Positions 36,601 through 55,815 of a stretch of 64,000 nucleotides of DNA are shown here, one piece after another. The notes below the pieces were generated by a model. It made no database searches. It was not told the DNA's origin and saw nothing but the letters and a program-made list of their open reading frames with translations. Each line of letters begins with the position of its first letter. The stretch's first letter is position 1. The DNA lies in assembly GCF_018362995.1 (NCBI RefSeq), contig NZ_CP074372.1:2728001-2792000 (forward strand). The letters run 5' to 3'. Source of the DNA: Chryseobacterium indologenes (GTDB lineage Bacteria; Bacteroidota; Bacteroidia; Flavobacteriales; Weeksellaceae). The position numbers were made by a program, and so were the translations under genes.

Positions 36601-37908
36601 TAAAACAGGGTGACCTTTCATCACGTTTTCAAGAATATCATAAACTACAGGTTCTTTTCTATCAATAATTCTCTTTGCAGATTTTACAGTTTTTACAATT
36701 CCTCTTTCAATTAGTTTTCTAATGATAAACGGTTTGTAAAGTTCAGCTGCCATATCTTTAGGAATACCACATTCGTGAAGCTGTAAGTTTGGACCTACAA
36801 CAATTACGGAACGCGCAGAGTAATCTACCCTTTTCCCTAGTAAGTTCTGACGGAAACGACCTTGCTTACCTTTCAATGAATCAGAAAGTGATTTCAATGG
36901 TCTGTTTGATTCAGATTTTACTGCAGAAGATTTTCTTGTATTATCGAATAATGAATCTACTGATTCCTGAAGCATACGCTTCTCGTTTCTCAAGATTACT
37001 TCAGGAGCTTTGATCTCCAATAATCTCTTCAAACGGTTATTTCTGATAATTACTCTTCTATAAAGGTCATTCAAGTCAGAAGTTGCGAAACGTCCTCCAT
37101 CCAATGGAACTAATGGTCTTAATTCTGGTGGGATAACAGGAAGTACACGCATGATCATCCACTCTGGTCTGTTGATCATTCTTGTATTAGCACCTCTCAA
37201 TGCTTCTACAACGTTCAATCTTTTAAGAGCTTCAGTTCTTCTTTGTTTAGAACCTTCGTTATGAGCTTTGTGTCTCAAGTCGAAAGACAATGCATCAAGA
37301 TCGATTCTTTTTAATAGATCTTCTACAGCTTCAGCACCCATTCTGGCGATGAATTTGTTTGGATCAGAATCATCAAGATACTGGTTTTCTACAGGAAGAG
37401 TTTCCATAATATCAAGGTACTCTTCTTCTGTAAGGAATTCCATATTTTCGAAATCGGAACCATCTAATTTTTTAGCAATACCCTGCTGAATCACTACATA
37501 TCTTTCATAGTAGATGATCATATCTAATTTCTTAGAAGGGATTCCTAAAAGGTATCCGATTTTGTTTGGCAATGAACGGAAGTACCAGATGTGAGCAATA
37601 GGAACGACCAATCCGATATGACCGATTCTTTCTCTTCTTACTTTTTTCTCAGTAACTTCTACACCACAACGGTCACAAACAATCCCTTTGTAACGAATTC
37701 TCTTGTATTTACCACAAGCACACTCGTAATCTTTTACAGGACCAAAGATTTTCTCACAGAATAATCCGTCTCTTTCAGGTTTGTGAGTTCTGTAGTTAAT
37801 AGTTTCCGGTTTTAAAACCTCCCCTCTTGAGTCCTGTAAAATAGACTCCGGTGAAGCTAAACCGATGGTTATTTTATTAAATCTACTTGTTTTATTTTTA
37901 TTTGACAT
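33643..37908 (-). CDS. rpoC: RNA polymerase beta' subunit
   Basis: Catalytic subunit of RNA polymerase, 1421 residues, typical of Bacteroidota. The first zinc ribbon uses Cys63, Cys65, Cys78 and Cys81 ([20 protein letters not shown]). The catalytic NADFDGDQ loop with three magnesium-binding aspartates lies near residue 470. The second zinc site is in [32 protein letters not shown] is the trigger-loop region. It is separated from rpoB by only 84 bases, which contain three TTTTAGA repeats. Co-transcribed with rpoB. Confidence 0.99.
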
Positions 37909-37910
37909 TT

Positions 37911-37946
37911 GTTAGATTTTAAATTTTAGATTTTAGATTTTAGATT
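37911..37946. repeat. Three tandem TTTTAGA heptamers in the rpoB-rpoC spacer
   Basis: TTTTAGA at 37924, 37931 and 37938, preceded by TTAGATTTTAAA. The spacer contains the rpoC leader. A related fold-back occurs after rpoC (about 33578-33632: GAAATTTGAGATTGTGAAA opposite TTTCAAATCCCAAATTTC). Confidence 0.7.
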
Positions 37947-37992
37947 AATTTCTGAATGTTGCCATTCAACATTTATAATTTAAAATTTAAAA

Positions 37993-40900: not shown

Positions 40901-41814
40901 TTGCTGTTTTCTTTGTGAATCAGGATTGATTTCACACCAGCATCCAGGATAAGATCTAAATGTTCTTTTTCCAGGATTGTTTCTCTATCCAGGATGATCT
41001 CATTTCTTTCGATAGAAACTACTTCACCTGTATCTTCGTCTACGAAATCTTCGAACCAAGTGTTCAATACTCTCGCAGCCAATGTTCTCCCTTCCACTTT
41101 TTTAAGGGCAGCTTTAGAAACTTTCACTTCTTCCGCAAGGTCGAAGATCTGAAGGATATCTTTATCAGATTCGTATCCTATAGCTCTTAATAAAGTTGTT
41201 AATGGTAATTTTTTCTTACGGTCGATATATGCGTACATTACGCTGTTGATATCAGTTGTAAATTCCATCCAAGATCCTTTGAAAGGGATAATTCTTGAAT
41301 AGTAAAGTTTGGTTCCATTCGCATGGTAAGTTTGTCCGAAGAATACACCAGGTGAACGGTGAAGCTGCGTAACAATAACTCTCTCAGCACCGTTGATGAT
41401 GAAAGAACCACTTGGTGTCATGTAAGGAACCGGACCTAAATATACGTCCTGAACCACTGTCTGGAAATCTTCGTGTTCCGGGTCAGTACAATACAGTTTA
41501 AGTCTAGCTTTTAGAGGAACTGAATAAGTAAGTCCTCTTTCCACACACTCATCGATTGAATAACGTGGAGAATCTACCAGATAGTCCAGGAATTCTAATA
41601 CGAATTGGTTTCTAGAATCCGTAATTGGGAAATTCTCTTGGAAAGTCTTGTAAAGAGCTTCTGTCTTTCTGGCTTCAGGAAGTGTATCAAGCTGGAAAAA
41701 TTCTCTGAAAGACTCAATTTGGATATCCAAAAAGTCCGGAGTGATGATTTTTCCTTTCGCTGATGAGAAATTAATTCTCGGATTTCCTTGAGTTGTTGAT
41801 TTTGTTTTACTCAT
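37993..41814 (-). CDS. rpoB: RNA polymerase beta subunit
   Basis: 1273-residue subunit that with rpoC forms the catalytic core. Family motifs include [70 protein letters not shown], the rifampicin-pocket and fork region, and [14 protein letters not shown] near the C-terminus. It has its own promoter 320 bases upstream (complement of 42139-42169), since rplL ends in a terminator and a cassette of surface-protein genes lies between them. Confidence 0.99.
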
Positions 41815-42138
41815 AAAACTTTTAAGAAAGGGTTAAAAAATATTTTGATTCATTAAAAAATATCAGAAAAGAACAAAAAAACAAGGTAAAAGTAAAAGGT
41901 AAAAGTGTTTTTGGCGCTCACAGAAGACCTCAGGACTCTTTTAACTATGCACTTGGCTCTTTCTAACTGCAACACTGGTATATCTTTTCACAGTGTAATG
42001 CAAAATATTTTTATTACTTTTGAGGCAGCATTACCGCAATATCTACATATACGAAATCCCTCTCACGTTTTCACAATGAAAGAGTTGATTTTCAGTATTT
42101 TATAAATTTACAAACAATTTTTCGCGCCAAAAGAAGGG

Positions 42139-42169
42139 CAAAGATACAAAAATCTATCTACAATAACAA
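42139..42169 (-). promoter_or_regulatory. rpoBC promoter
   Basis: On the minus strand, TTG (complement of 42167-42169), 20-base spacer and TATCTTTG (complement of 42139-42146). Both elements and the spacing fit the Bacteroidota consensus. Confidence 0.75.
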
Positions 42170-42203
42170 ATAAATCATCTCATTTTGAGACTCTTAAAAA
42201 CAA

Positions 42204-42233
42204 GAGAGGCTGCTCAAACATGAGCAACCCCTC
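42204..42233 (-). terminator. Terminator of the surface-protein cassette upstream of rpoB
   Basis: GAGAGGCTGCTCA pairs with TGAGCAACCCCTC (two mismatches, AACA loop). In the minus direction it is followed by TTGTTTTT. Confidence 0.7.
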
Positions 42234-42256
42234 CACAACACAAGCTAATCTTATGA

Positions 42257-44854
42257 CTATTTCACAATAACCTTATAAGATTTTATTTTTGATTTGGTTT
42301 CTATTTTAATGATATAAACCCCTGTAGGAAGTGAAGATGTATCAATACCGGTATTGGCATTGAACTTATCTGTCTTAATTACCTGTCCCTGTGCTGAGAA
42401 CAGAGTATACACTCCTTCTTCTGCAGATGTAATTCTAAGATTTTCTCCTGCTTTTACCGGGTTTGGATATACTTTCACATCATTGGCAGCATCAGTAATT
42501 TCTGCAGCTGTGGTTTTTGCAGCAGTTTTAGGAGCATTTTTCAGTAATGAAGCATATGGTGAAAGCGGAGAATCAGGAGAACCTCTTTTCACCAGGTCAG
42601 TATCTACAACAGCCTGAATACCATCTTTATCCTGATCATTAATTGTAGAGATAAATCCACCTCCTAATGTATCCAGATTACCTTTTCCGATCTTATAAAG
42701 GTCAGGATCTGATCCGTTGGAAGTAATATCCAGGAAGTCCGGCTTATCATCTCCATCTGTATTTTTGATTGCATATTTCAATACTCCTGAGTCTGGTGAT
42801 GTTTCCAGAATATCAGCGATACCGTTTTTACCTACCGGAACATTAGCATCGATAACTCCGTTGTGATCTGCATCAATCTGATTGATGACTGACGTTGGAA
42901 TTCCTGATTCAAACAAATCTAAGATACCATCGTTATCAGAATCAAGGTCCAGATAATTCGGAACTGAATCTCCCAATACCGGCGTTAACAGGATATCTCC
43001 TTCATTATCATCATCCTGGAATTTTCCATTTTTGTCAAAGTCTTCCACAGCATCAGGAATACCGTCGTTATCAGAATCCAGATCACAAGCATCCACAATA
43101 CCATCTCCGTCTGTATCCAATGCAGGAGATTTATCATTCACTTCAGTACATCCTTCTGCACAGTCAGGAATTCCGTTTCCGTTATTATCTATGCTGTCAT
43201 CACCTCCAGGGCAACGGTCAAAACAGTTTGGAACACCATCATTATCATCATCTCTGCTCGCAAAAGCATTATAGATATAATAATTCTGAGGAATACGAAC
43301 TGCTGTTCCGCTGTTGAATGTAATTTTAATACGATTGAAAGGCTTTGTTGCTTTTCCTCCGACATAGAATTTATTTGAATTCGTTGTGAAGAAGTTTCCG
43401 CTGATAAGACTTCCTGAGCTTGTAAAGGTATCTGTCAATGTATTTCCATTGTACAAAGTCACGGTGATATTTTCCAACACACTTACTCCAAGAAGATTTC
43501 CTGCTTTTTCTACGGTGAACCCAGCCATTGTATTAACAGGAAGCACAGTATTACTGCTTACCGTTGCAAAGGCTGAAAAAATGCTAAGAAAAGATGCCGC
43601 AGGAACAGTAGCCGTTGCATAATTAGATGGGTTATTATCTACAATAGCTTCCGGATTGGTCATCTTCGCTAAAATAAGACCAAGGAATCCCGGACCTGAT
43701 GTCCATGAAGTTCCGGTTACCAAATTTCCAGGTACCGCAGAACCACTTGTCTGGATTTTATCATCACATTCGCAAGAAACTGGTTCTTCAAAAGCGTAAT
43801 AAACTTTTAAAGCTCCTAAATTAAATCCAACTGTCTGTGTAATTTTTAATCGTACTTCATTGAAAGGCTTAGTAGTCGTTAATGTAACTTTCTGTTTTCC
43901 TGAACCGAATCCCAACACTTTTATATTAATCAGACCACCTCCGTCAGACAGTTGTTTTGAATCCTGAAGCTGTCCGTAAAGGTAAGTTTCTATTGTAATA
44001 TTCTTTAAAAACTCTGCACTTAAAAGTTTCCCCTGATCATCCGGCTCTATTACAAAACCTGTTCTGTTACCTGCAGGATACACCTGATTTTTGTCAAGAA
44101 CTCCAACTGAATAAGATCCCAGCAATCCGACAGGAAGAACTATTGATCCGTAAGAGTTTTTATTTCCATCTCCAATTCTTTCTTTATTCTGAACATAAGA
44201 AAGCGGAGCCAGGAAACTGCTGCTTCCGGATACATTCCCGTCAACACCGCTTCCTGCAATGATATCATCACAAATACCATTATTGTCTGTAGGTACTTTT
44301 GCAGGATCAAATGCAAAGGCATAATATACATTCATAGCACTGAATACGGAAAGAACATTGGTTTGATAGAGTCTTACTTCATCAAATTCTTTTGAAGTTT
44401 TAAAATGTAAGAATATTCTGTTTTTACTTCCTCCGAATGCAGGAACTGATAAAAGAGTACTGCTGGTAGTGGTCTCCTGAAGAACACCATTTTTATAAGT
44501 ACTGATTCGTAAAGAGCTCAACAGATCAACAGTAATAAAACTCGTTCCAAGATCTACATTGAATCCGGTAATATATCCTGCAGGATAAGTTGTATTTTTA
44601 TTCTTCACAGAGATTCCGTTTCCACTTAACAGAGAAGCGAAATTCCCCATGCTTACGCTGTTGTCAAGACTTGCATCCACCACCGAATTCATGCTTCCGT
44701 TATAACATGCCAGGCAGATCCCTGAATTGTTGACAGGTTTTGCCTCTACACCCATCCCACGGATAGGCTCATAGCCCTGCTGCGCAAATACTACTGCTGA
44801 CATCATGAGTGTCATAAGCATCACAGCTAACTTTTCGAATAATTTTCTGGTCAT
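42257..44854 (-). CDS. Large surface protein with calcium-binding TSP3 repeats and T9SS type A sorting domain
   Basis: An 865-residue protein. Signal peptide at the N-terminus (MTRKLFEKLAVMLMTLMMSAVVFA). Three related beta-sandwich-like modules cover the first ~570 residues, each with AGYITGFNVD/AGNRTGFVIE/NTMAGFTVE-type segments. Then come thrombospondin type 3 acidic repeats (DDDNDGVPNCFDRCP, DTDGDGIVDACDLD, DSDNDGIPDAVED, DSDNDGILDL) that bind calcium. The C-terminus is a T9SS signal beginning KVYPNPVKAGENLRI. The frame extends 48 codons upstream, but ATG at 44854 starts the signal peptide. It is 37 bases after the YadA-like gene, in the cassette between rplL and rpoB. Confidence 0.88.
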   Translation of the reverse strand: MTRKLFEKLAVMLMTLMMSAVVFAQQGYEPIRGMGVEAKPVNNSGICLACYNGSMNSVVDASLDNSVSMGNFASLLSGNGISVKNKNTTYPAGYITGFNVDLGTSFITVDLLSSLRISTYKNGVLQETTTSSTLLSVPAFGGSKNRIFLHFKTSKEFDEVRLYQTNVLSVFSAMNVYYAFAFDPAKVPTDNNGICDDIIAGSGVDGNVSGSSSFLAPLSYVQNKERIGDGNKNSYGSIVLPVGLLGSYSVGVLDKNQVYPAGNRTGFVIEPDDQGKLLSAEFLKNITIETYLYGQLQDSKQLSDGGGLINIKVLGFGSGKQKVTLTTTKPFNEVRLKITQTVGFNLGALKVYYAFEEPVSCECDDKIQTSGSAVPGNLVTGTSWTSGPGFLGLILAKMTNPEAIVDNNPSNYATATVPAASFLSIFSAFATVSSNTVLPVNTMAGFTVEKAGNLLGVSVLENITVTLYNGNTLTDTFTSSGSLISGNFFTTNSNKFYVGGKATKPFNRIKITFNSGTAVRIPQNYYIYNAFASRDDDNDGVPNCFDRCPGGDDSIDNNGNGIPDCAEGCTEVNDKSPALDTDGDGIVDACDLDSDNDGIPDAVEDFDKNGKFQDDDNEGDILLTPVLGDSVPNYLDLDSDNDGILDLFESGIPTSVINQIDADHNGVIDANVPVGKNGIADILETSPDSGVLKYAIKNTDGDDKPDFLDITSNGSDPDLYKIGKGNLDTLGGGFISTINDQDKDGIQAVVDTDLVKRGSPDSPLSPYASLLKNAPKTAAKTTAAEITDAANDVKVYPNPVKAGENLRITSAEEGVYTLFSAQGQVIKTDKFNANTGIDTSSLPTGVYIIKIETKSKIKSYKVIVK

Positions 44855-44891
44855 TTTTATTTTTTTAAGGTTTGTGTTTATTTGTATTGAA

Positions 44892-46025
44892 TTAGTAAAG
44901 TGCTTTCCAGTTAGTCCCATTACAGCCTTCATGTACTCTGGCGGTTGTATTATATCGGATTGCACCCTCCTCAGCAGTAGAACAACTTGCATTAGCACCT
45001 GAAGCGATTCCTTTCATCTGAATGGCAGCACCTGTAGCAGTAGCTGCGGTAGGAGTCATATTGATTCCTAATATGGTGTCTGTACCGTTATTTTTATTGA
45101 AGAAAACGTGTTGTTTGTTGGCATAAACCAGCTGTCCAGCTGCTGCCTGACCTGAAAATCCTATTGCAAAAGCTTCTGTACCGGTGGCTGTGTTCGCTGA
45201 ACCGACAGCAATATTGTTCAATGATGTTGTATTTCCGCTTCCGATGGCAATCCCACCACTGTTGATATGATTGTTCCCAACCGTGAGTCCTGTGAGTCCT
45301 GTTACCGTATTAAGGTTTCCAAATACCAAATTATTAGGTCCTGTAGCATTGTTGGTATTCCCTATTACTTTAGCACCATTATTTGCTGTATTTCCCATTC
45401 CGATAGCAACAGCGAGAAAATTCCCCTGTGCAGAGACAGTATTGTCTTTTCCCAATGCAATATTAGAAGAGGTACTGTTGGTAAGAATATTATTGGATCC
45501 CCAGGTGAATGACGAGTAAGGACCCGTTGCAGAATTGGAATTTCCACCTTGCAGGGTTCCATTCGTATCTAATATTCCTTTTACATTTTTCTGAGTAGCC
45601 AAAACCAAATTCTGACCGTCATTTGTTCCTAAATAATTTCCGTTGCCAATATCAGTTCCTAAGGTTGCCGTTGTTGCTGTTGTACCGGAATTTCCTACTG
45701 TACGCCAGCTTCCGCTTATGCTTAGCCATTTGGCACCATCAAAATAATAATACCCTGGTGAAACGACATCAATGGTCTGTCCGGACGGTGTAGCTTCAGC
45801 CGAGGTAACGTACACTATGGCTCCTGTTTGGGCCGTCGTATAGTTTTTAGCTTTTAATTGTACACCTGTAAGCCTGGGAGCAATCACGCCATCAAGTTTA
45901 CCGGGGTTGGAAGGTGAGCCTACTATATCAAAGGTTGCCTGAGCTTGTCCAGTATTAATCCCAACCTGTGCTAATGCCGGCAAACCAAATGATAAAAGAG
46001 TGATAGTAAATAATCTGTTTTTCAT
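44892..46025 (-). CDS. Secreted adhesin-like protein with YadA-type head repeats (VGINT family)
   Basis: A 377-residue protein. Signal peptide MKNRLFTITLLSFGLPALA, then QVGINTGQAQATFDIVG, the motif shared by the three paralogues at 49.4-51.4 kb. Residues about 185-310 are short glycine/asparagine repeats (SNIALGKDNTVSAQGN, AIGMGNTANNG, IAIGSGNTTSLNN, IAVGSANTATG) like the beta-roll head of YadA/Hia trimeric adhesins. There is no YadA membrane anchor. The C-terminus has paired cysteines in CSTAEEGAIRYN and EGCNGTNWKAL. It would be surface or extracellular. The frame extends upstream, but ATG at 46025 starts the signal sequence. Confidence 0.78.
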   Translation of the reverse strand: MKNRLFTITLLSFGLPALAQVGINTGQAQATFDIVGSPSNPGKLDGVIAPRLTGVQLKAKNYTTAQTGAIVYVTSAEATPSGQTIDVVSPGYYYFDGAKWLSISGSWRTVGNSGTTATTATLGTDIGNGNYLGTNDGQNLVLATQKNVKGILDTNGTLQGGNSNSATGPYSSFTWGSNNILTNSTSSNIALGKDNTVSAQGNFLAVAIGMGNTANNGAKVIGNTNNATGPNNLVFGNLNTVTGLTGLTVGNNHINSGGIAIGSGNTTSLNNIAVGSANTATGTEAFAIGFSGQAAAGQLVYANKQHVFFNKNNGTDTILGINMTPTAATATGAAIQMKGIASGANASCSTAEEGAIRYNTTARVHEGCNGTNWKALY

Positions 46026-46152
46026 GTCTAATGATATTTGCTGTTTTTTATGTGTGTGTGTTTTTGAAAGGCAATTCTCGGGCGTTCTCACTCAAATAAT
46101 AAATGAAATAACAGACAGTGCTGTGAGAAAGCGTATAAGATTGTTAGAAATA

Positions 46153-46641
46153 TTAAGAGATAAAAGAATGGATTAATTTATCAGGAATTTTAATAATAAA
46201 CTTAAAACCATCAACAAGTTTAAAAGGATTGATACAGAACTTGCGGACTTCAATAAATGCCAGGAAAATATATTCTTTGCAGACAGAGTAAGAAAAAGTC
46301 CATACAGAGGCAAATCTTATATTTCTCAGGAGAAATAACTGGAGATCATTATTCTTAAAAAAAGAAAAATTATACTGATGACTATTGCAATAGAATGCAA
46401 AAACTTCATTTTGAACAGCAGACAATTTGTTTGCAGCCGTCAAATCATTTCCTGCTTCAGACAGATAATCTGAAACATCAGCTAAACATCGCTGGGGATG
46501 ATTATTTATAACTGTGCAATAAGGTAATTCAGTCTTACCTATTGTGCCAGCTATAAACTTAGCGTTTAATTTTCCTACAGCCGCCATAAGCAACAGAATT
46601 GTAATCTTGTGGCCGTAGGAAAGAAAATAATTTCTATCCAA
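46153..46641 (-). CDS. Unknown protein, first gene of the rplL-rpoB cassette
   Basis: A 162-residue frame with hydrophobic segments (HKITILLLMAAVGKL, about 11-25) and aromatic-rich, cysteine-containing sequence without a recognised domain. It opens with TTG at 46641; the next ATG is codon 19. A promoter-like TTG-N18-TATATTTG (complement of 46663-46691) lies directly upstream, which supports a real transcript. It is 127 bases upstream of the YadA-like gene. It may be an exported or membrane protein of the cassette; it could also be a non-coding frame, so confidence is moderate. Confidence 0.45.
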   Translation of the reverse strand: MDRNYFLSYGHKITILLLMAAVGKLNAKFIAGTIGKTELPYCTVINNHPQRCLADVSDYLSEAGNDLTAANKLSAVQNEVFAFYCNSHQYNFSFFKNNDLQLFLLRNIRFASVWTFSYSVCKEYIFLAFIEVRKFCINPFKLVDGFKFIIKIPDKLIHSFIS

Positions 46642-46662
46642 TTATGTTGTGTTTTTTCGGTA

Positions 46663-46691
46663 CAAATATAATATTTTTTTAACCAAAACAA
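46663..46691 (-). promoter_or_regulatory. Promoter of the rplL-rpoB surface cassette
   Basis: On the minus strand, TTG (complement of 46689-46691), 18-base spacer, TATATTTG (complement of 46663-46670). Confidence 0.55.
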
Positions 46692-46867
46692 TATTTTATT
46701 AGTAAAAAACCAAACAAAATTAACAAATATTAAAATACAACTAAAATATTATGTTAATTATTATTAAATAAACAATCATATTAAAATATAACAAATAAAG
46801 AATGAATAATATTCAAATACTATTATAAAATAAAACACGCATTTACAAAGACTTACATACAAAAAAA

Positions 46868-46891
46868 GAGCCCGGGCAAATGCCCGGGCTC
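46868..46891 (-). terminator. Intrinsic terminator after rplL
   Basis: An 11-bp GC-rich stem GAGCCCGGGCA / TGCCCGGGCTC, followed in the minus direction by seven T. Unusually strong, it separates rplKAJL from rpoB. Confidence 0.92.
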
Positions 46892-46914
46892 CTATATTTA
46901 TAATAAAATTGAAA

Positions 46915-47280
46915 TTATTTCAATTCTACTTCAGCACCAGCTTCTTCTAATTGCTTCTTAAGAGCTTCAGCTTCGTCTTTAGAGATACCAGTTTTGATTG
47001 GAGCAGGAGCACCATCTACGATATCTTTAGCTTCTTTAAGACCAGCACCAGTTAAATCTTTTACTAATTTAACGATAGCTAATTTAGAAGCACCTGCAGA
47101 CTTAAGAATTACGTCGAATTCAGTTTTTTCTTCAGCAGCTTCACCACCACCTGCAGCAACTACTACAGCAGCAGCAGCTGGCTCAATTCCGTACTCATCC
47201 TTAAGGATAGTTGCTAATTCGTTTACGTCTTTTACTGTTAAGTTTACTAGCGTTTCAGCTAAATTTTTTAAATCTGACAT
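46915..47280 (-). CDS. rplL: 50S ribosomal protein L7/L12
   Basis: Stalk protein that recruits translation factors, 121 residues. N-terminal dimerisation helices ([26 protein letters not shown]), an alanine/glycine-rich hinge ([13 protein letters not shown]) and the C-terminal factor-binding domain with [25 protein letters not shown]. It follows rplJ by 46 bases. The mRNA ends in the terminator at 46868. Confidence 0.98.
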
Positions 47281-47326
47281 TGTTGTAATGTTTTTGTTGA
47301 TTATTTATTTAATTTCTTGAGTGTAA

Positions 47327-47911
47327 TTATTCAGCACTTGTTTCTTCAGTGCTTTCTGCAGCAGCTTCTGGAGCTTCAGCAGGAATTTCTTCTACCGCAG
47401 GAGCAGCTTCTTCAGCTTTAGCTTCTACAGTTTCAGGTTTGTTTTGAAGAGCAGAAACAACTCTTTGAATTGGAGATTGAAGTAATCCGATGATTTCTCC
47501 GATCATTTCTTCTCTAGACTTGATGTTAGCAAGTGCAGATAAGTTTTCGTCTCCAACGTAGAAAGTTTCCTGAACAAAAGCAGACTTTAAAGCTGGCTTT
47601 TCTTCTTTCTTTCTGAAACCTTGGATTAATTTTGCTGGACCGTTTGCAGTCTCAGAAATCATTAATGCAGAGTTTCCTTTAAAAGTCTGGAACATTTCAG
47701 AGTAATCTACTCCTTCAATCTGCTCCATTGCTTTTTGTAAAAGTGTATTTTTCACCACTTTCACTTTGATATTTTGCTTGAAAGCCTGTCTTCTGAATTC
47801 TGAAGACTTCGCAGCGTTCAAACCGTCTAGATCTGCTACGTATACTACTTTTGCATCCTGAAGCAAGTCTTTGATCTCTTGTATTGCTACAACTTTTTGG
47901 TCTTTTGTCAT
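47327..47911 (-). CDS. rplJ: 50S ribosomal protein L10
   Basis: Stalk base protein holding L7/L12 dimers, 194 residues. KVVYVADLDGLNAAKSSEFRRQAF and KVKVVKNTLLQKAM are the rRNA-binding part. The C-terminal L7/L12-binding helix ends about residue 157. A further ~36-residue alanine/glutamate-rich tail (KAEEAAPAVEEIPAEAPEA) is not found in the shorter E. coli protein (165 residues). Co-transcribed with rplK, rplA and rplL. Confidence 0.98.
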   Translation of the reverse strand: MTKDQKVVAIQEIKDLLQDAKVVYVADLDGLNAAKSSEFRRQAFKQNIKVKVVKNTLLQKAMEQIEGVDYSEMFQTFKGNSALMISETANGPAKLIQGFRKKEEKPALKSAFVQETFYVGDENLSALANIKSREEMIGEIIGLLQSPIQRVVSALQNKPETVEAKAEEAAPAVEEIPAEAPEAAAESTEETSAE

Positions 47912-47928
47912 TGTCTTAAGGATTTATA

Positions 47929-48621
47929 TTAGTTAACAGATTTAGTATCGATTGCAATACCAGGGCTCATTGTAGAAGACAAGTAAATGCTTTTTACATA
48001 AGTTCCTTTAGCAGCAGTTGGCTTCATTTTGATCAATGTAGAGATCAATTCCTGCGCATTTTCTTTGATCTTAGCAGCATCGAAAGATACTTTACCAATA
48101 CCAGCGTGGATGATACCATACTTGTCTACTTTGAAATCAATTTTACCTGCTTTCACTTCAGTTACTGCTTTACCAATTTCCATTGTTACAGTTCCTGATT
48201 TAGGGTTTGGCATTAAACCTCTTGGACCTAATACTCTACCTAATGGACCTAATTTACCCATTACAGCTGGCATAGTAACGATAACGTCAACATCTGTCCA
48301 ACCTTCTTTGATTTTTTGTAAATATTCGTCAAGACCTACATAATCAGCACCAGCAGCTTTAGCTTCTGCTTCTTTATCTGGAGTTACAAGAGCTAATACT
48401 TTAACATCTTTACCAGTACCGTGAGGAAGAGATACAACACCTCTTACCATTTGGTTTGCTTTTCTTGGGTCTACCCCTAATCTTACAGCGATATCTACAG
48501 AAGCATCAAACTTTGTAGTGTTCACCTCCTTTACAAGAGCTGAACCTTCTTCAAGGTTATAGATTCTTCCTTTTTCTACTTTGCTTAAAGCTTCCTTTTG
48601 CTTTTTAGTTAATTTTGCCAT
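47929..48621 (-). CDS. rplA: 50S ribosomal protein L1
   Basis: 230-residue protein of the L1 stalk. [25 protein letters not shown] and [25 protein letters not shown] are diagnostic. It also acts as a translational repressor in other bacteria. It is 11 bases after rplK and 17 before rplJ, within the rplKAJL unit. Confidence 0.98.
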
Positions 48622-48632
48622 TTCTTTAAGTT

Positions 48633-49076
48633 TTAAGCGTTAGTTGGTTTAGTTCCTGTTACTCTTAATCCCATAGATCTAGCAGTACCTGCAACCATAG
48701 AAACTGCAGAGTCTGTTGTAAAACAGTTAAGATCCGCCATTTTATCTTCAGCGATTTTCTTTACTTGTTCCCAAGTTACAGAACCTACTTTGTTTCTGTT
48801 TGGTTCACCAGAACCTCCCTTGATCTTAGCTGCATCCATTAACTGGATTGCTGCAGGTGGAGTTTTAATAACGAATTCAAAAGATTTGTCTTCGTATACT
48901 GTAATTACTACAGGTAAAACTTGCCCTGGCTTATCTTGGGTTCTTCCGTTAAATTGCTTACAAAACTCCATGATGTTCACACCTGCAGAACCCAATGCTG
49001 GACCTACTGGTGGAGAAGGGTTAGCTGCGCCACCTTTCACCTGAAGCTTTACCATTTTAAAGACTTTCTTAGCCAT
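48633..49076 (-). CDS. rplK: 50S ribosomal protein L11
   Basis: 147-residue protein of the GTPase-associated centre. The proline-rich N-terminus [29 protein letters not shown] and C-terminal [14 protein letters not shown] are diagnostic. First gene of rplKAJL, with its own promoter about 95 bases upstream (complement of 49174-49203). Confidence 0.98.
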
Positions 49077-49173
49077 TGTTTGTTTTTTAAATTTGAATAA
49101 TTAATGAGTTTGGAAGCATTTATTATTCAGTAGGTTATGCACTCACATAACAATAAACCTACTTTTTGGACTG

Positions 49174-49203
49174 CAAAAGTATAAAATATTTTTTAAATAG
49201 CAA
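49174..49203 (-). promoter_or_regulatory. rplKAJL promoter
   Basis: On the minus strand, TTTG with TTG at the complement of 49201-49203, 19-base spacer, TACTTTTG (complement of 49174-49181). A very good consensus match. Confidence 0.78.
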
Positions 49204-49348
49204 ACGGAAATTGCTGATTTTTAAAAAGTTTTAAAAAAATAATCGAGATACAGAATTATTTTTCCAGATCCTCTTTTGTGATGTCCTCTTTCGAGAGGAA
49301 TTTTGAAATATATCTCACCCGGTTTTAAAAAGTGACCCTTTTAGCCAA

Positions 49349-49382
49349 AAAAAAGAAGAACATACATTTGCTCTTCTTTTTT
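49349..49382 (-). terminator. Intrinsic terminator of the VGINT cassette
   Basis: AAAAAAGAAGA and TCTTCTTTTTT flank a 12-base loop, just after the stop of the last cassette gene; T-rich in the minus direction. Confidence 0.85.
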
Positions 49383-49403
49383 ATTTATGGATTCAAAGAA
49401 TTA

Positions 49404-50072
49404 CTAAAAACCTGATGGTTTCGTAATTGTTTGGGTAGAACCATTATTCCCGCCAAGATCAGCAGTAACATCACTGATATTTTGCTTTGTAATCAACCTT
49501 CTGTAAGCCATAAGATAAAGATCTACCGTAAAGTTGTTATAGTTTCTTGACGGACTAGATGAGTTCACAGCAATAATTCTACTGTCTGTAAATCTTGCTC
49601 TGATATGCCATGTTCCGTTACTTTTGAAAGCAACAACATCAGGTGAGCCCTGTTTGTTATCATTAATACCGTTGTCGCCATAATCAAGCATCACATTGGT
49701 ATTTCCGTCATTCAGTTTGAATGAGTAGTTATGAAGCACAACCAGAAAGTTATTTGCATCAATTTTGGTATCATAATCCGTGATTCCCGCACCTGATATT
49801 CCGGTAAGACTAAGCTTAAGGTAATTGAACAAACCGCTGCTTTCCAAAGCCGGATCATACAATTGCAAACCATTTTGTGAAGTTGCTAAGAAACTACCTC
49901 CTGTCATGGTAGGCTCACCCGGATTTCTCAGATATAAAGAATTCGTGTATGTTTTTCCGTTAACGTCAAGTGTTTCTGTAGGATTAGCGGTGTTTATCCC
50001 TACTTTTCCTATTTGGGCATTCAAGAATATCCCCATACACATGATTATTGTGATATAAATTTTTCTTTTCAT
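49404..50072 (-). CDS. Secreted VGINT-family protein (paralogue 3)
   Basis: A 222-residue exported protein. Signal peptide MKRKIYITIIMCMGIFLNA. The mature start is QIGKVGINTANPTETLDVNG, a motif also seen in tail-fibre-like and adhesin-like proteins. The rest is a beta-rich domain with TKIDANNFLVVLHNYSFK and GTWHIRARF, which align by eye to the two upstream paralogues (SSKFLVVISSFGF; GTWKLKADY). Function unknown; surface or extracellular. Last of three tandem genes, 7 bases after its neighbour. Confidence 0.82.
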   Translation of the reverse strand: MKRKIYITIIMCMGIFLNAQIGKVGINTANPTETLDVNGKTYTNSLYLRNPGEPTMTGGSFLATSQNGLQLYDPALESSGLFNYLKLSLTGISGAGITDYDTKIDANNFLVVLHNYSFKLNDGNTNVMLDYGDNGINDNKQGSPDVVAFKSNGTWHIRARFTDSRIIAVNSSSPSRNYNNFTVDLYLMAYRRLITKQNISDVTADLGGNNGSTQTITKPSGF

Positions 50073-50079
50073 AGTTTTT

Positions 50080-50727
50080 TTATTGAAGCCCTAGAGGCGT
50101 GTTGGTTGATACTCCCGAATAAGCCGGTGAAGCAGATGCCGAAACTGAACCATTGAAAGTTCCCCAGTCTTTAACTAATGATTTTTCAAAGACATTCAGC
50201 GTAAGCGTCCATGTTCCATTTTGGGATGAAACGGTACCGGCTCCTTTAAAGCTTAAATTAATCGCATGATAATTTTTACCTCCACTTGCTACCTGAGTAA
50301 CTTCAGTAGAATAAGAACCATATGATTTTGGGTTAGTCGTTGTATTAGCTGCCGACACCGCTCCTGTAAAAACAGCACCTGTAATGGCCACAACATATTT
50401 ACTTACATCTAATCCTGTATTGAGATTCACTACTTCATCCTGTCTCACATTTTTCAATACAATATTATACATATTTACAGGGGCTACATTACGGAGCGAT
50501 ATATCCAACAGCTTTACCTTACCTACCGGTGAAGTATCTTTTGAACGGGTAAGAAGAAGATAGTTTCCGCTTGCCTTCGTATTTTCAGTATCTATTAAAT
50601 AGGACTCTACCAATGCTTCTCCTTCAACATCGAGAGTTCCTTTGGGTGTGCTAGTATTAATTCCAACTTGTGCATTAATGCTTAAAGCAGCAAAACCCGT
50701 AAAGAGTATCGCAATAATTTTTTTCAT
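50080..50727 (-). CDS. Secreted VGINT-family protein (paralogue 2)
   Basis: A 215-residue exported protein. Signal peptide MKKIIAILFTGFAALSINA, then QVGINTSTPKGTLDVEGEAL. The body shares VSKYVVAITGAVFTG and NGTWTLTLNVFEKSLVKDWGTF with paralogue 1 (VWTLNLLVFDRSYAKDFNS). The end is serine/alanine-rich. No catalytic motif. Middle gene of the tandem set, 12 bases after paralogue 1. Confidence 0.82.
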   Translation of the reverse strand: MKKIIAILFTGFAALSINAQVGINTSTPKGTLDVEGEALVESYLIDTENTKASGNYLLLTRSKDTSPVGKVKLLDISLRNVAPVNMYNIVLKNVRQDEVVNLNTGLDVSKYVVAITGAVFTGAVSAANTTTNPKSYGSYSTEVTQVASGGKNYHAINLSFKGAGTVSSQNGTWTLTLNVFEKSLVKDWGTFNGSVSASASPAYSGVSTNTPLGLQ

Positions 50728-50739
50728 AAAGTATTTGTT

Positions 50740-51360
50740 TTATTGAATTAATGGAGCTGCAGCAGCACCCGTTGTTGAAGCATTAAGGCTTTGTGTAGAA
50801 TTAAAATCTTTGGCATAGGATCTGTCAAATACCAACAAATTCAGTGTCCAGACTCCTGTAGGAAAAGAGTTGTCAGGGGAAAAGCCCTGATAATCTGCTT
50901 TAAGCTTCCATGTTCCTCCTGCAGAATAAGCAAAAATCTGAGGTACCGGTGTAAGCCAATCTGCAGAAAAAGTTCTTGTAGGTTGTGTAAATCCAAAGGA
51001 AGAAATTACTACCAAAAATTTACTAGAGTTGATCTTTGTGTCAAATTGATTTACCCAATCCTTGTCTGAAGGATCACAGGTAATTTTAAATTGAATAAGG
51101 TTAATCGGTGCCGGAGAATTGGGTACAAAGGAATCGTTGTACGCTGTAATTTTGTTTTCCGGAGCTGGAGATTTGATAATGAAAGTGTAATTCTCATCTG
51201 CTTTCAATTTCTCCATAGGTTGCTTGAAAACAACTCCTGATGTCTTCATTGTACCGTTCACGGTAAGTTCTTTTTCTGGTTTCGTAGTATTGATACCAAC
51301 CTGCGCACTTGCGAGTACGGACGTACCCACAAGAATGACCATCGAAATAATTTTTGTCAT
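50740..51360 (-). CDS. Secreted VGINT-family protein (paralogue 1)
   Basis: A 206-residue exported protein. Signal peptide MTKIISMVILVGTSVLASA, then QVGINTTKPEKELTVNGTMK. The middle has TKINSSKFLVVISSFGFTQP and the end GVWTLNLLVFDRSYAKDFN, matching the two downstream genes. First gene of a three-gene cassette between nusG and rplK. No promoter pair was clearly seen upstream; the repeat-like region to nusG is a possible site. Confidence 0.82.
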   Translation of the reverse strand: MTKIISMVILVGTSVLASAQVGINTTKPEKELTVNGTMKTSGVVFKQPMEKLKADENYTFIIKSPAPENKITAYNDSFVPNSPAPINLIQFKITCDPSDKDWVNQFDTKINSSKFLVVISSFGFTQPTRTFSADWLTPVPQIFAYSAGGTWKLKADYQGFSPDNSFPTGVWTLNLLVFDRSYAKDFNSTQSLNASTTGAAAAPLIQ

Positions 51361-51461
51361 TGAGTTATGTGTTTATAAGGCTTGTGTTTTAAATAGCTAA
51401 TCCAAACTTTATATTTTTTTAAGTAAAAACATAAGATTTACCATACGCCTGTAAACAGTGT

Positions 51462-51660
51462 ATGAAATACAAAAAACATAAAATTTATGGATTACTTAAC
51501 AGCTTGGTTGCAAGAACTATGCCATCTGAAAATATATTAAAGAAATGGAAGGAACTTTAAAGCAAAAAATTTTCAAAAGAAAGTAATTAAATAAAAAAAA
51601 TTCACTGCAGAAGAAATCAACAAGATATCTGTAGTAAAAGACAATACCATAATTTTTTAG
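51462..51660 (+). pseudogene. Possible decayed gene fragment
   Basis: ATG at 51462 starts MKYKKHKIYGLLNSLVART, then MPSENILKKWKEL and a stop (frame 0). A second frame gives MEGTLKQKIFKRK. A third, from about 51590, gives NKKKFTAEEINKISVVKDN, then TIIF and a stop. The pieces are in order and have protein-like composition, as in a gene broken by frameshifts. It could be chance; family unknown. Confidence 0.3.
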
Positions 51661-51683
51661 GCAACTATAAATAATTACACCAT

Positions 51684-51770
51684 TGTCGTTCTGACGAAGG
51701 AAAGAATCTCATGTAAAGCCTGGATTCTTCATTTCACTGCATTACATTCAGAATGACAAAGTCATGATAA
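51684..51770. repeat. Inverted intergenic repeat of the GTCATTCTGA type
   Basis: Left arm CGTTCTGACGAAGGAAAGAATCTC, right arm GATTCTTCATTTC then CATTCAGAATGACAAAG, which pair imperfectly. The arms resemble a fold-back repeat (GTCATTCTGA, then GAAGAATCTC) seen widely in bacterial intergenic DNA. Confidence 0.6.
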
Positions 51771-51823
51771 TAAGATGGCAGCACTAATGTAAAATTATAT
51801 ATAATTAAGAGTATTAGAAAAGC

Positions 51824-51851
51824 AAAAAGACCGCTTAATAGCAGTCTTTTT
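51824..51851 (-). terminator. Intrinsic terminator after nusG
   Basis: AAAAAGAC / GTCTTTTT stem with an inner GC/GC pair; T-rich in the minus direction. Confidence 0.8.
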
Positions 51852-51870
51852 ATATTTTTATAAGTAATTG

Positions 51871-52413
51871 TTATACTTTTTCTACTTGCATGTAGCTTAG
51901 CTCCATTGGAGTTTTTCTACCGAAGATCAATACAGAAACTTCAATTTTCTTTTTGTCTTCAAGAATCTTCTCAACTGTACCATTGAATCCGTTGAAAGGT
52001 CCATCGATTACTTTAACGTTTTCACCTACTACATAAGGAATTTCAACATCGCTTGCAAATTCTGAAAGTTCATCCATTCTTCCAAGCATTCTGTTAACCT
52101 CTGATTTTCTCATTGGAACAGGATCTCCCCCTTTAGTTAAACTTAAGAAAGAAATAACTCCAGGAATATTCTTGATAACGTGAGGAATTTCTCCCATCAG
52201 ATCAGCTTCAATCATCAAGTATCCAGGGTAATAAGGTCTCTCTTTAGGAACTTTTTTTCCGTTTCTAATTTGAATTACCTTTTCCATAGGAATAACCACT
52301 TGAGTAACGTACTGATCAAACCCTAGACGTTTGATTTCTGTCTCAATATAGTTTTTCACTTTATTTTCCTGTCCGCTGATAGCTTTCAGCACATACCATT
52401 TCAATTCGCTCAT
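51871..52413 (-). CDS. nusG: Transcription termination/antitermination protein NusG
   Basis: 180-residue elongation factor that binds RNA polymerase beta' and couples it to Rho or the ribosome. The NGN domain begins KWYVLKAISGQENKVKNYIE and includes RPYYPGYLMIEADL. The KOW motif is NVKVIDGPFNGFNGTVEKI near 130-148. 19 bases after secE, the usual order. Confidence 0.97.
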   Translation of the reverse strand: MSELKWYVLKAISGQENKVKNYIETEIKRLGFDQYVTQVVIPMEKVIQIRNGKKVPKERPYYPGYLMIEADLMGEIPHVIKNIPGVISFLSLTKGGDPVPMRKSEVNRMLGRMDELSEFASDVEIPYVVGENVKVIDGPFNGFNGTVEKILEDKKKIEVSVLIFGRKTPMELSYMQVEKV

Positions 52414-52432
52414 TATGGGAAAATACTTTTAA

Positions 52433-52639
52433 TTAATTGAACAAGTTGATTAGCATTCCAATGATGTTGCTGATTGATTTAGAAAACAATTCATCAACTC
52501 CAAAAGTAAATAATGCCAGAATCACTGTCGCAATAGTCACTACAATAGTAGATGACTGAAGGTCAGCCCACTTTGGCCATTCAACTTTATGTCTGAATTC
52601 GTTATAAGAACCTTTTAAAAAATCGACAAATGAACTCAT
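52433..52639 (-). CDS. secE: Preprotein translocase subunit SecE
   Basis: 68-residue short-form SecE with one membrane helix (SSTIVVTIATVILALFTFGVD, about 28-48) preceded by the conserved amphipathic FLKGSYNEFRHKVEWPKW. It clamps SecY in the translocon. Located between tRNA-Trp and nusG. Confidence 0.95.
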   Translation of the reverse strand: MSSFVDFLKGSYNEFRHKVEWPKWADLQSSTIVVTIATVILALFTFGVDELFSKSISNIIGMLINLFN

Positions 52640-52651
52640 AATTTATATTTG

Positions 52652-52722
52652 CACGGGCACAAGGATTCGAACCCTGATCAACGGTTTTGGAGACCGGTAT
52701 CCTACCATTGGACGATGCCCGT
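52652..52722 (-). tRNA. tRNA-Trp (CCA)
   Basis: On the minus strand: acceptor ACGGGCA pairing with TGCCCGT, D arm GTCC/GGAT, anticodon loop CTCCAAA with anticodon CCA, T arm CAGGG-TTCGAAT-CCTTG, discriminator G. CCA is not encoded. The first anticodon-stem pair looks like a C-U mismatch. Confidence 0.96.
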
Positions 52723-52728
52723 AGATAA

Positions 52729-52760
52729 AAAGCTTCCGAGAGTTTCCTTTCGGAAGCTTT
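52729..52760 (-). terminator. Terminator between tuf and tRNA-Trp
   Basis: An 11-bp stem AAAGCTTCCGA / TCGGAAGCTTT with a 10-base loop, followed by TTTTT in the minus direction. tRNA-Trp-secE-nusG must be reached by read-through or an unseen promoter. Confidence 0.85.
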
Positions 52761-52776
52761 ATTTATTTTAAGATGA

Positions 52777-53988
52777 TTAGTCTAAGATTTCAGTAACCTG
52801 ACCTGAACCAACTGTTCTACCTCCTTCTCTGATCGCAAATCTAAGACCTACGTTAAGAGCGATTGGTTGTAACAATTCTACAGTGATCTCTAAGTTATCA
52901 CCAGGCATTACCATTTCTACACCTTCTGGTAAGAAGATCTCACCTGTAACGTCAGTAGTTCTTACGTAGAACTGAGGACGGTATTTGTTGTGGAATGGAG
53001 TGTGACGTCCACCTTCTTCTTTAGAAAGGATATAAACAGAAGCCTTGAATTTTTTGTGTGGCTTAACTGAATCTTTCTTAGCGATAACCATACCTCTCTT
53101 GATGTCAGTTTTTTCAATACCTCTCAACAATAGACCTACGTTATCTCCAGCTTCACCTCTATCTAGGATCTTTCTGAACATCTCAACTCCTGTAATAGTA
53201 GAAGTTAATTTCTCGTCACCCATACCTACGATATCAACTGGATCACCAGTGTTGATAACACCAGCCTCGATTCTACCAGTTGCTACAGTACCTCTACCTG
53301 TAATAGAGAATACGTCTTCGATTGGCATCAAGAATGGCTTTTCAGTATCTCTTGGTGGTTGCTCGATCCAAGTATCAACAGCATCCATCAATTCTTCAAC
53401 GCTCTTGAACCACTTATCTTCTGTGTTAGCAGGAGAAGCAGTAGCTGCAGTAAGAGCACCTAGTGCAGAACCTTGAATTACTGGAGAGTTGTCTCCGTCA
53501 AATTCGTAAGTAGATAATAAGTCTCTAAGCTCCATTTCAACAAGCTCTAATAACTCTGGATCATCTACCATGTCAACTTTGTTCATGAAAACAACGATTC
53601 TTGGTACGTTTACCTGACGGCAAAGTAGGATATGTTCTCTAGTCTGAGGCATAGGACCGTCAGTTGCAGCACATACTACGATAGCTCCATCCATTTGAGC
53701 AGCACCAGTTACCATGTTCTTAACATAGTCGGCGTGACCTGGACAGTCAACGTGAGCATAGTGTCTTTTTTCAGTTTCGTATTCGATGTGAGCAGTATTG
53801 ATAGTAATACCTCTTTCTTTTTCTTCTGGAGCAGAGTCAATTGCAGAGAAGTCTTTTTTCTCAGCAAGACCTTTGCTAGCTAATACAGCAGAAATAGCAG
53901 CTGTAAGAGTAGTTTTACCATGGTCAACGTGACCAATAGTACCAATGTTCAAGTGTGGTTTGTTACGATTAAACGTTTCCTTTGCCAT
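52777..53988 (-). CDS. tuf: Elongation factor Tu
   Basis: 403-residue GTPase delivering aminoacyl-tRNA to the ribosome. GTP motifs GHVDHGKT (G1), DCPGH (G3) and NKVD (G4) are intact, with [12 protein letters not shown] as switch I. Eight to ten residues longer than the E. coli protein, with extra sequence around SPANTEDKW. Followed by a terminator and tRNA-Trp. Confidence 0.99.
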
Positions 53989-54312
53989 GATTTAAAATTA
54001 TTTATTTATTGTTTTTCAAATTTTCGGTGTGCAAATATAATGAATTTTTAAATACCAAAAACTTTTTATTAAAAAAACTTTCAATATTCTCATCCAGTGA
54101 AGGACAAACCTTATATTTAACGTATTGAGACTGCAAATTTACAAATTTTTCCGAATAGAAAAAATCCTTAGAAACGTTTTATTAAAAATATAAACTATCA
54201 TACTAGTTATGAATACAATATACAGATAAAAAAATACGGGCAGTGATCTCCATCCGTAAATCCAACTTTATTTTTTTCTCGTAAATACAAAACAACAACT
54301 AAAATTACTATT
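53989..54312. other. Spacer between tuf and the divergent DUF4394 gene
   Basis: 324 bases holding the tuf promoter (54032-54039) and a second TAnnTTTG (complement of 54134-54141) without a -33. The minus-strand 62-codon frame at 54207 overlaps the DUF4394 gene and is probably spurious. Confidence 0.55.
54032..54058 (-). promoter_or_regulatory. tuf promoter
   Basis: On the minus strand, TTG (complement of 54056-54058), 16-base spacer, TATATTTG (complement of 54032-54039). The spacer is one base shorter than usual. Start about 40 bases before the ATG. Confidence 0.6.
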
Positions 54313-55815
54313 ATGAGAAAACTATTACACATGTACTTAGCCCTGTTTGCTATTATAACATTATTTTCATGCGATAATTCGGATGAAAACAACATGCCTG
54401 AAAATATGACACCTCAAGGTCCAGATCTTATGGTATACGGAATAACCGCTATGAATGAACTTGTTTATTTCAATTCCAATAATCCTAAAACTTTCACCTC
54501 AAAAACAGCGGTAACCGGCATTGTATCAGGAGAGAAATTATTAAGCATAGATTTCAGACCTGCGACCGGGGAATTGTATGCATTATCCAATGCCAGCAAG
54601 TTATATATTATCAATACTTCCAATGCTTCAGCAAGAGCGGTAAGCTCTACAGCATTTTCTCCTATAATTTCAGGAACAATAGCTTCTATTGATTTCAACC
54701 CTACTGTCGACAGGATTCGTCTGGTGAGTAATACCGGACAAAACCTTCGCTTACATCCGGAAACCGGAGCTGTTGCTGCTACTGATATTAATATCAACGG
54801 AACAGCAAACCCTTCCATAACTGGAGTAGCATATACCAACAGTAAAGCTGGTGCTTCCACTACTGCTTTATTTGACATAGATCCGGCTTTGGGAAAATTA
54901 TACAAACAAGACCCACCCAACAACGGAACTTTAGTCGAGGTTGGAAGCCTGGGAACTACTTTTACAGGACAGTCTGCGTTTGATATTAGATATGATAATA
55001 GCACTGCATTATTAGCTTTCAATGATAAATTGCATGTTCTGGATCTGAATAATGGTAAAACGACTCCGATAGGAATTCTTCAACAGGCAGTCATTGATAT
55101 TGCCATTCCTACAGAACCGACAGCTTATGCGATTGACAATTCAAATAATCTTCAAATTTTTAATCCAAACAATCCTATGCCTGTTTCTAAAACAGTGACC
55201 GGTTTACAAAGCGGTGAGAATATTTTAGGAATAGATTTCAGACCAGTCAACGGACAATTATATGCTTTGGGAAGCTCAAGCAGAATTTATACTATTAATT
55301 TAGGGACAGGTGCTGCTACAGCGGTCGGCACTTCTCCTTTTTCAACTTTACTTTCCGGAACGGATTTCGGATTTGACTTCAATCCAACAGTTGACAGAAT
55401 AAGAGTAGTGAGTAATACCGGGCAGAATCTCCGACTTAATCCTAACGACGGAACAATAGCTGCCGTAGATATTACGTTAAATCCGGCAAGTCCAATGATA
55501 AGCGCCGCAGCATATACGAACAACTTTGCAGGAGCCACTTCCACTATCTTGTTTGTCATTGATCATAATACAGATAAATTATATCAGCAAAACCCTCCCA
55601 ATAACGGAACTTTAGTAGAGACAGGTTCTTTAGGAATTAATATTACCAATGCTAATGGTTTTGATATTGGAAGCATGAGTCAAAAAGCCTATTTAATGGC
55701 ATCGGTAGGTTCCTCTACAAAAATCTATTCTATAAATACCACAACAGGAGCCGCAACTTCAGTTTCCGACTATCCGAATACAGTAAAAGCTTTTACCATA
55801 GGATTAGGATTTTAA
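54313..55815 (+). CDS. Lipoprotein with duplicated DUF4394 domain
   Basis: A 500-residue protein. Lipobox ITLFSC (Cys20) after a hydrophobic signal. Two copies of the same ~215-residue propeller-like unit follow: SGEKLLSIDFRPATGELYAL and IDFNPTVDRIRLVSNTGQNLRLHPETG in the first (about 75-165), and SGENILGIDFRPVNGQLYAL and FDFNPTVDRIRVVSNTGQNLRLNPNDG in the second (about 300-385). DUF4394 proteins are exported and of unknown role. No T9SS domain. It stands alone, with a hairpin at 55843. Confidence 0.87.
   Translation: MRKLLHMYLALFAIITLFSCDNSDENNMPENMTPQGPDLMVYGITAMNELVYFNSNNPKTFTSKTAVTGIVSGEKLLSIDFRPATGELYALSNASKLYIINTSNASARAVSSTAFSPIISGTIASIDFNPTVDRIRLVSNTGQNLRLHPETGAVAATDININGTANPSITGVAYTNSKAGASTTALFDIDPALGKLYKQDPPNNGTLVEVGSLGTTFTGQSAFDIRYDNSTALLAFNDKLHVLDLNNGKTTPIGILQQAVIDIAIPTEPTAYAIDNSNNLQIFNPNNPMPVSKTVTGLQSGENILGIDFRPVNGQLYALGSSSRIYTINLGTGAATAVGTSPFSTLLSGTDFGFDFNPTVDRIRVVSNTGQNLRLNPNDGTIAAVDITLNPASPMISAAAYTNNFAGATSTILFVIDHNTDKLYQQNPPNNGTLVETGSLGINITNANGFDIGSMSQKAYLMASVGSSTKIYSINTTTGAATSVSDYPNTVKAFTIGLGF

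Follow-up and report, generated by a model that had tools for sequence, protein, structure and literature searches.

Candidate insulated sites of cargo turnover at nusG-rplK and rplL-rpoB in Chryseobacterium and related genera

Introduction

The run of core genes from tuf to rpoB is broken at two places in a 64,000-nucleotide stretch of the Chryseobacterium indologenes chromosome (hereafter the window; its source genome is one 5.0 Mb contig). How did other genes come to lie within a run that encodes ribosomal proteins and RNA polymerase, and are they recent arrivals or a property of the lineage?

Hotspots between core genes and the break-up of operon clusters are already known. The sections of Oliveira et al. 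(2017, PMC5635113) that bear on this, which compare genomes within each of 80 species, describe hotspots of horizontal gene transfer as a small number of places on the chromosome where gene content changes quickly, many of them lacking mobile elements, and explain them by homologous recombination in the flanking core genes. For other phyla, the relevant parts of PMC8046335 describe a few genes inserted between core operons, followed by full disconnection of the operons; in one of these cases the insert, nrdHEF, separates rplL from the gene that follows it, and the main text of that paper contains neither 'terminator' nor 'promoter' (0 occurrences each). In Chryseobacterium sp. NG-CE01, the section of PMC13063519 on genomic islands reports that IslandViewer flagged nusG-rplKAJL-rpoBC as GI_2 (15.9 kb, 13 genes, five of them hypothetical), which its authors regarded as a large housekeeping cassette at a broadly conserved locus. 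GI_2 covers the corresponding core genes; its description there does not deal with insertion sites, insulators or turnover of cargo. Our search of the open-access PMC literature found no paper on insertion sites at nusG-rplK or rplL-rpoB in this clade.

Two three-gene cassettes interrupt the core run in the window

Read along the minus strand, the gene order is tuf, tRNA-Trp, secE, nusG, three genes sharing a VGINT motif, rplKAJL, three further genes and rpoB. The first core block comprises tuf (EF-Tu, 52777-53988), tRNA-Trp (cca, 52651-52722), secE (52433-52639, which served as a tblastn query) and nusG (51871-52413); the second comprises rplK (48633-49076), rplA (47929-48621), rplJ (47327-47911) and rplL (46915-47280); rpoB follows at 37993-41814. 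This order and the shared strand confirm what a sequence-only reading of the locus had claimed, namely that two three-gene cassettes sit between nusG and rplK and between rplL and rpoB on the core strand. Upstream of tuf lies a divergent gene (54313-55815, plus strand) with a match to DUF4394 in two stretches (482 bits).

Cassette 1 is a tandem array of three paralogues (50740-51360, 50080-50727 and 49404-50072, all minus strand; 206, 215 and 222 residues, respectively) with a signal-peptide-like N terminus and the VGINT motif. The middle protein has 148 relatives; among the 120 listed, the named ones belong to Chryseobacterium and are mostly labelled 'hypothetical protein'. A beta-sandwich is predicted for roughly residues 82-187 of this protein with middling to modest confidence, and matches of the trio protein to agglutinins and tail fibres were not significant. 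The third VGINT gene matches six places in the genome, two of them within the window (itself and another gene of the trio).

Cassette 2 opens with a small TTG-start gene (46153-46641, minus strand; 162 residues with a hydrophobic N-terminal segment) whose ends are conserved and whose middle is variable, and for which searches of Pfam and PHROG gave no match. We considered and rejected the possibility that this small ORF is noise: a frame of 140-170 codons is preserved in 26/26 loci having the start motif, and shuffled sequences reach 100 codons in a fraction of 0.0015 of cases; the motif is absent from the other 28 of 54 loci. The second gene (44892-46022) encodes a 376-residue protein with YadA-head-like repeats that also has the VGINT motif, and its relatives are labelled YadA-like or Hep_Hag in some records. 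The third (42257-44854) encodes an 865-residue protein with a TIGR04183 type A C-terminal sorting domain (60.7 bits against a curated cut-off of 23), a result that applies to this gene only; its TSP3-like stretch scores below cut-off. Both cassettes of the window are adhesin-like, and the second is preceded by a promoter of its own. Such proteins may resemble YadA-like adhesins and the mosaic adhesive trimer fibres of Bdellovibrio (PMC10769870) in having beta-rich fibre tips that are exchanged; matches of a VGINT profile to MYRF (E 0.012) and Bd2133 (E 0.1) chains are weak and below significance, and a trimeric fibre fold is possible.

The cassettes had been described as flanked by four strong hairpins, and all four fold stably on the minus strand (z −4.5 to −7.3 against 200 dinucleotide shuffles). 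They lie 3' of nusG (51823-51852, 13 pairs; −15.3 kcal/mol, z −6.0), of cassette 1 (49349-49382; −14.6 kcal/mol, z −4.5), of rplL (46866-46893, 12 pairs of which nine are G-C; −25.5 kcal/mol, z −4.8) and of cassette 2 (42203-42234; −24.3 kcal/mol, z −7.3). A generic terminator scan of the window recovered three of the four, missing the one at 49349 because its U run was absorbed into the stem; as a whole, that scan found terminator-like sites no more often than in shuffled sequence (11 vs 9.9).

As a promoter pattern we used the Bacteroidetes sigma-A type, TTG-N16-24-TAnnTTTG, whose TAnnTTTG box is the consensus mapped in Flavobacterium psychrophilum in the mapping results of PMC9723704. Scanning with it placed a sigma-A type sequence before rplK (TTG-N-TACTTTTG, 49174-49203), rpoB (TTG-N-TATCTTTG, 42139-42169) and tuf (54032-54058), all on the minus strand and with first bases 127, 355 and 70 bases before the respective genes' starts, in agreement with the claim that each of these genes has a promoter of its own. 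Cassette 2 is preceded by a candidate promoter (46663-46691, minus strand) whose -7 box, TATATTTG, ends 21 bases 5' of the TTG start; the signal recurs in 44 of 53 leaders, and 43 of 51 loci have a terminator after the cassette. For cassette 1 the scan found no sigma-A promoter above chance (5 of 47 loci, with 5 in shuffled sequence), and 30 of the 47 trio loci have a terminator within 100 bases after it.

Both junctions are open across one clade

We assembled 80 loci from a scan of genome contigs and 140 from further genomes; after removal of six duplicates, the final set held 151 open-clade loci (window included) and 64 others, among them one Faecalibacter. Within the clade, nusG-rplK (hereafter site A) spans 191-8735 bp and exceeds 1 kb in 98 of 141 loci, and rplL-rpoB (site B) spans 267-8386 bp and exceeds 1 kb in 87 of 120; junctions that ran past a contig end or 20 kb of sequence were omitted, so these size counts are biased towards small inserts. 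The same junctions are closed in other Flavobacteriales-type genera, at 47-107 bp for site A (63 loci) and 84-263 bp for site B (64 loci). Turnover at the two sites far exceeds that at five neighbouring core junctions, a comparison made inside this locus: tuf-secE, secE-nusG, rplK-rplA, rplA-rplJ and rplJ-rplL are never longer than 225 bp in the clade, with 0/140 to 0/151 above 1 kb. An assembly artefact was rejected as an explanation, since equal junction sizes recur across many independent assemblies, some of them single-contig.

For 123 genomes outside the genus, within a family sample of 148, we derived approximate junctions from the match coordinates of rplA, nusG and rpoB, assuming the fixed lengths that rplK and rplAJL have in the window. 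By this approximate measure, 34 family genomes, drawn from six genera, have closed junctions (39-86 bp at site A and 50-117 bp at site B; site A was not measured in G271), with the single exception of 1173 bp at site A in G190, and other genera of the family have junctions from about 190 bp up to 15.7 kb. In several genomes the blocks have separated on one contig, with nusG far from rplA in six genomes (G173, G174, G187, G189, G196 and G198) and rpoB far from rplL in eight (G174, G176, G196, G201, G206, G223, G231 and G245); distances between the separated blocks range from 42 kb to 1.8 Mb, and some blocks are inverted.

These data bear on whether the insertions are recent or lineage-wide, which the sequence-only reading had left undecided. 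The open junctions are clade-wide but do not extend to the entire family, and the cargo varies among relatives. A recent insertion was rejected for both cassettes of the window, which are common to about half of same-genus loci (the VGINT trio in 48 of 97, the 865-residue T9SS gene in 51 of 84); presence of the cassettes or of the open state in all of the family was likewise rejected, given the 34 genomes above. Both junctions are closed in nearly all related outside loci measured, and one clade has opened and reuses both.

Predicted terminators and promoters are found clade-wide, also at empty sites

The signals seen in the window recur across the clade and are rare outside it. A terminator follows nusG in 124/141 clade loci vs 9/63 others, and rplL in 144/151 vs 2/64; a promoter precedes rplK in 151/151 vs 1/63, and rpoB in 113/120 vs 2/64. 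Mononucleotide shuffles of the clade stretches gave 0.4, 1.2, 3.6 and 10.2, respectively. Among sites without cargo, terminator and promoter are both present in 28 of 39 at site A, where the remaining 11 yielded no detected terminator, and in 30 of 33 at site B. With both signals in place at most empty sites too, the split need not have followed the arrival of cargo. In two genomes of a divergent open genus, nusG and rplL are each followed by a terminator and rplK is preceded by a promoter; at rpoB, the -7 box alone was found.

Predicted terminators and promoters thus occur throughout the clade and at most empty sites, and turnover falls exactly at the two junctions that they border. The nusG and rplL blocks would end, and the rplK and rpoB blocks begin, as separate transcription units. 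That the core genes are insulated from the cassettes had been claimed from the outset: by sequence they do form separate units, and insulation of their transcription is what these signals predict.

In the Flavobacteriaceae loci examined, the rplL-rpoB gap contains a long hairpin, which falls outside the terminator-scan counts and could attenuate transcription; partial termination at this junction may therefore be older than the clade's open state. Loci L024, L041, L052, L063 and L086 share in their rplL-rpoB gap a long hairpin-like repeat, GGTTTAGG..CCTAAACC, lacking a clear U tract.

Cargo turns over between fixed core flanks

On a FastTree phylogeny of the core genes of the locus itself, cargo is patchily distributed. 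Where both ends of a junction could be measured, an ORF of at least 150 residues is present in 100 of 146 cases at site A and in 85 of 125 at site B (duplicates included). A module of a LuxR-TPR regulator and a T9SS protein occurs in eight scattered loci, and further cargo includes a membrane protein, a DUF285 T9SS protein found mostly on the reverse strand and an AraC-MFS-trehalase set.

The boundaries of the variable segments are confined. In 18 pairwise comparisons between loci with differing cargo, modules lie between the upstream terminator region and a point 128-516 bases 5' of rplK or rpoB, where the alignment picks up again; in the eight of these that set an empty site against a loaded one, it breaks off 0-70 bases past the nusG or rplL stop. 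At site B of L124, compared with L125 and L127, the middle of the YadA-like gene is 52-58% identical and neighbouring stretches mostly 80-94%, a pattern that reads as a domain-sized replacement, or allele swap. Cargo and core distances are correlated, with Spearman coefficients of 0.80 and 0.73 for the main genes of cassette 2, lower ones of 0.49 and 0.46 for the eight-locus module, and values from −0.5 to 0.89 for the other sets, of which several have 3-5 members; much of the descent is therefore vertical.

Secreted products account for 156 of 203 ORFs at site B and 113 of 272 at site A, vs backgrounds of 10/34 and 52/275. Counted by family against the background of 34 window ORFs, signal peptides occur in 21 of 44 families at site A (p 0.11) and 16 of 28 at site B (p 0.04) with a revised predictor that allows for wrong starts and sets multi-TM proteins apart; an initial test with the first version gave no significant excess (A p 0.24, B p 0.20), and both versions are crude. 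The excess of secreted proteins is thus weak by family and, at site B, dominant by ORF count. Surface proteins as the sole cargo were not supported, given that trehalase, MFS transporters, AraC regulators, a Y-family polymerase, Tex and ApbE are also present. The suggestion that the junctions are docking sites for surface genes therefore survives in its first half: insertion sites are borne out and 'docking site' is a fair term, but 'for surface genes' is only partly so because numerous cargo families encode other kinds of protein.

A probable history of the locus and its rivals

We consider it probable that an ancestral split of the run into three insulated units created permissive sites whose cargo has since been exchanged by recombination in the flanks. 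In an ancestor of the clade that includes Chryseobacterium, Epilithonimonas, Kaistella and Bergeyella, the tuf-secE-nusG-rplKAJL-rpoBC run would have divided into three self-sufficient units, with a terminator shutting the nusG and rplL blocks and a sigma-A type promoter plus a conserved leader opening the rplK and rpoB blocks. Both junctions would thereby have become permissive, because DNA inserted between the two signals would be expected to leave the core blocks on either side undisturbed. Exchange of cargo would then have gone chiefly through ordinary homologous recombination in the conserved core genes that flank it, a route we infer from flanks that stay alike and from a scan of 40 cargo representatives from related loci, of more than 100 families, that found no integrase. 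The insulated-site part of this account is well supported by sequence, the surface-gene part partly.

An ancestor with large cassettes at both sites, followed by lineage-specific deletions and little or no horizontal exchange, would account for the trio and the T9SS gene being common to about half of the genus and for apparent loss debris, such as the roughly 1 kb that L103 retains without both large cassette-2 genes; two loci (L100 and L179) even hold modules of Chryseobacterium and Epilithonimonas type together at a site B of about 8.2 kb. Yet site A has 44 families with products of at least 150 residues and site B has 28, too many for all to be ancestral in junctions of at most 8.7 kb, and the same module occurs in distant lineages while being absent from those lineages' relatives, so that we regard pure deletion as unlikely. 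Still less likely, in our judgement, is insertion driven by mobile elements, with a transposon or site-specific element that has the terminator regions as its target and brings the cargo along. The two transposases among the cargo ORFs scanned (in the L186 and L217 sets), together with the IS110 gene that the locus description in PMC13063519 gives for NG-CE01, indicate that mobile elements play some part, and short inverted matches lie near terminators in some pairwise comparisons. Against a driving role stand the scan for integrases and the orientation of the cargo: ORFs longer than 150 residues run with the core genes in 238 cases vs 34 at site A and 193 vs 9 at site B (duplicate loci included), unlike random transposition.

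That same orientation bias, the predominance of secreted ORFs at site B and the recurrence of an adhesin-like architecture across genera would also suit surface genes being kept here because expression at this site is high and linked to growth, being coupled to the synthesis of ribosomes and polymerase. But cassette 2 has its own predicted promoter behind a strong terminator, non-surface cargo is common and family-level enrichment weak, and co-direction can be explained by avoidance of collisions with core transcripts; we hold this functional reading to be somewhat unlikely.

A split followed by exchange between the core flanks, which we prefer, resembles the hotspots of PMC5635113, as far as its hotspot sections go, in that the same core genes flank the sites across the clade while content turns over. 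It differs from them in that the two spots lie inside a ribosomal protein/RNA polymerase run and coincide with terminators and promoters, and in scale, the comparison there being within species and here between species and genera. The order of insertion first and separation later, drawn from the operon comparisons in PMC8046335, agrees with the far-apart blocks seen here; the phylum is different, and here many modules turn over at two fixed junctions. Closed operon, insulated empty site, loaded site and full separation together form a natural series of states, which makes the order of events in operon break-up testable. Where rpoB or ribosomal protein genes serve as phylogenetic markers in this clade, their neighbourhood is one in which recombination should be checked.

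Conserved leaders accompany the open state

Between the predicted rpoB promoter and rpoB lies a conserved leader element, R1 (41960-42015, minus strand), a probable RNA hairpin with a stem of four and six pairs and a nearly invariant 13-base loop. Its core, allowing up to two mismatches, occurs within 500 bases before rpoB in 125/125 clade loci (duplicates included) and 0/64 others, and a longer R1 pattern has a single occurrence in the window's genome. A model search found R1 in 111 of the 148 family genomes and in 14 of 119 genomes sampled from the order; these 14 all belong to the window's family, and the other 105 gave no match. Both searches used stricter filters, under which weak matches are lost. 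By elimination, the 37 family genomes lacking R1 are the 34 closed ones, two whose rpoB start was not found (G184 and G255) and G204, where the miss is unexplained. One copy per genome is the rule (110 of 111), G294 having two. In the separated genomes checked, R1 still precedes the rpoB match by about 100-230 bases. Within the samples searched, R1 appears as a marker of the open-junction state. At oriented position about 15308 of L194, a second, truncated R1-like copy lies upstream of the full one, which may be a sign of duplication or insertion inside the leader.

R1 is probably a structured leader RNA whose stem is kept by compensatory changes. Three pairs have changed on both sides, a number reached by 20 of 500 shuffles, and covariation involves 39 cells vs 13.1 in shuffles; pair types show no excess (5 vs 5.1), and one stem pair fails in 13 of 62 sequences. 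Because this covariation is modest and the single-sequence fold is ordinary (stability the same as in shuffles, z −0.1), R1 may instead be a protein-binding DNA repeat. In Rfam, R1 had no match, and across 36000-55000 the tRNA alone reached cut-off. The main text of PMC7247131, on ribosomal leaders, does not mention rpoB or L11, and our open-access PMC search found no paper on an rpoB leader in the clade.

R1 is thus of interest both as a marker for operon change and as a candidate regulator of RNA polymerase synthesis; that it acts in feedback control is a guess. More tentatively still than the history above, one can picture three plug-in blocks with two sockets that exchange adhesin-like proteins between species, R1 being a newly gained leader RNA that restores the polymerase feedback lost with the cutting of the operon, a possibility to which we give less than even credence. 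If true, the exchange of adhesin-like proteins at the sockets would run through recombination in ribosomal and polymerase genes.

The rplK leader (49077-49173, minus strand) contains a conserved stretch, AATAAATGCTTCCAAA, found in 136/157 clade loci and 0/64 others, with a probable hairpin (z −1.6). The leader has TGAATAATAAATGCTTCCAAA plus a partly pairing TATTCA and is possibly an L1-binding leader. Three Flavobacteriaceae loci, in which nusG-rplK is closed, also have a GCTTCCAA stretch in that gap.
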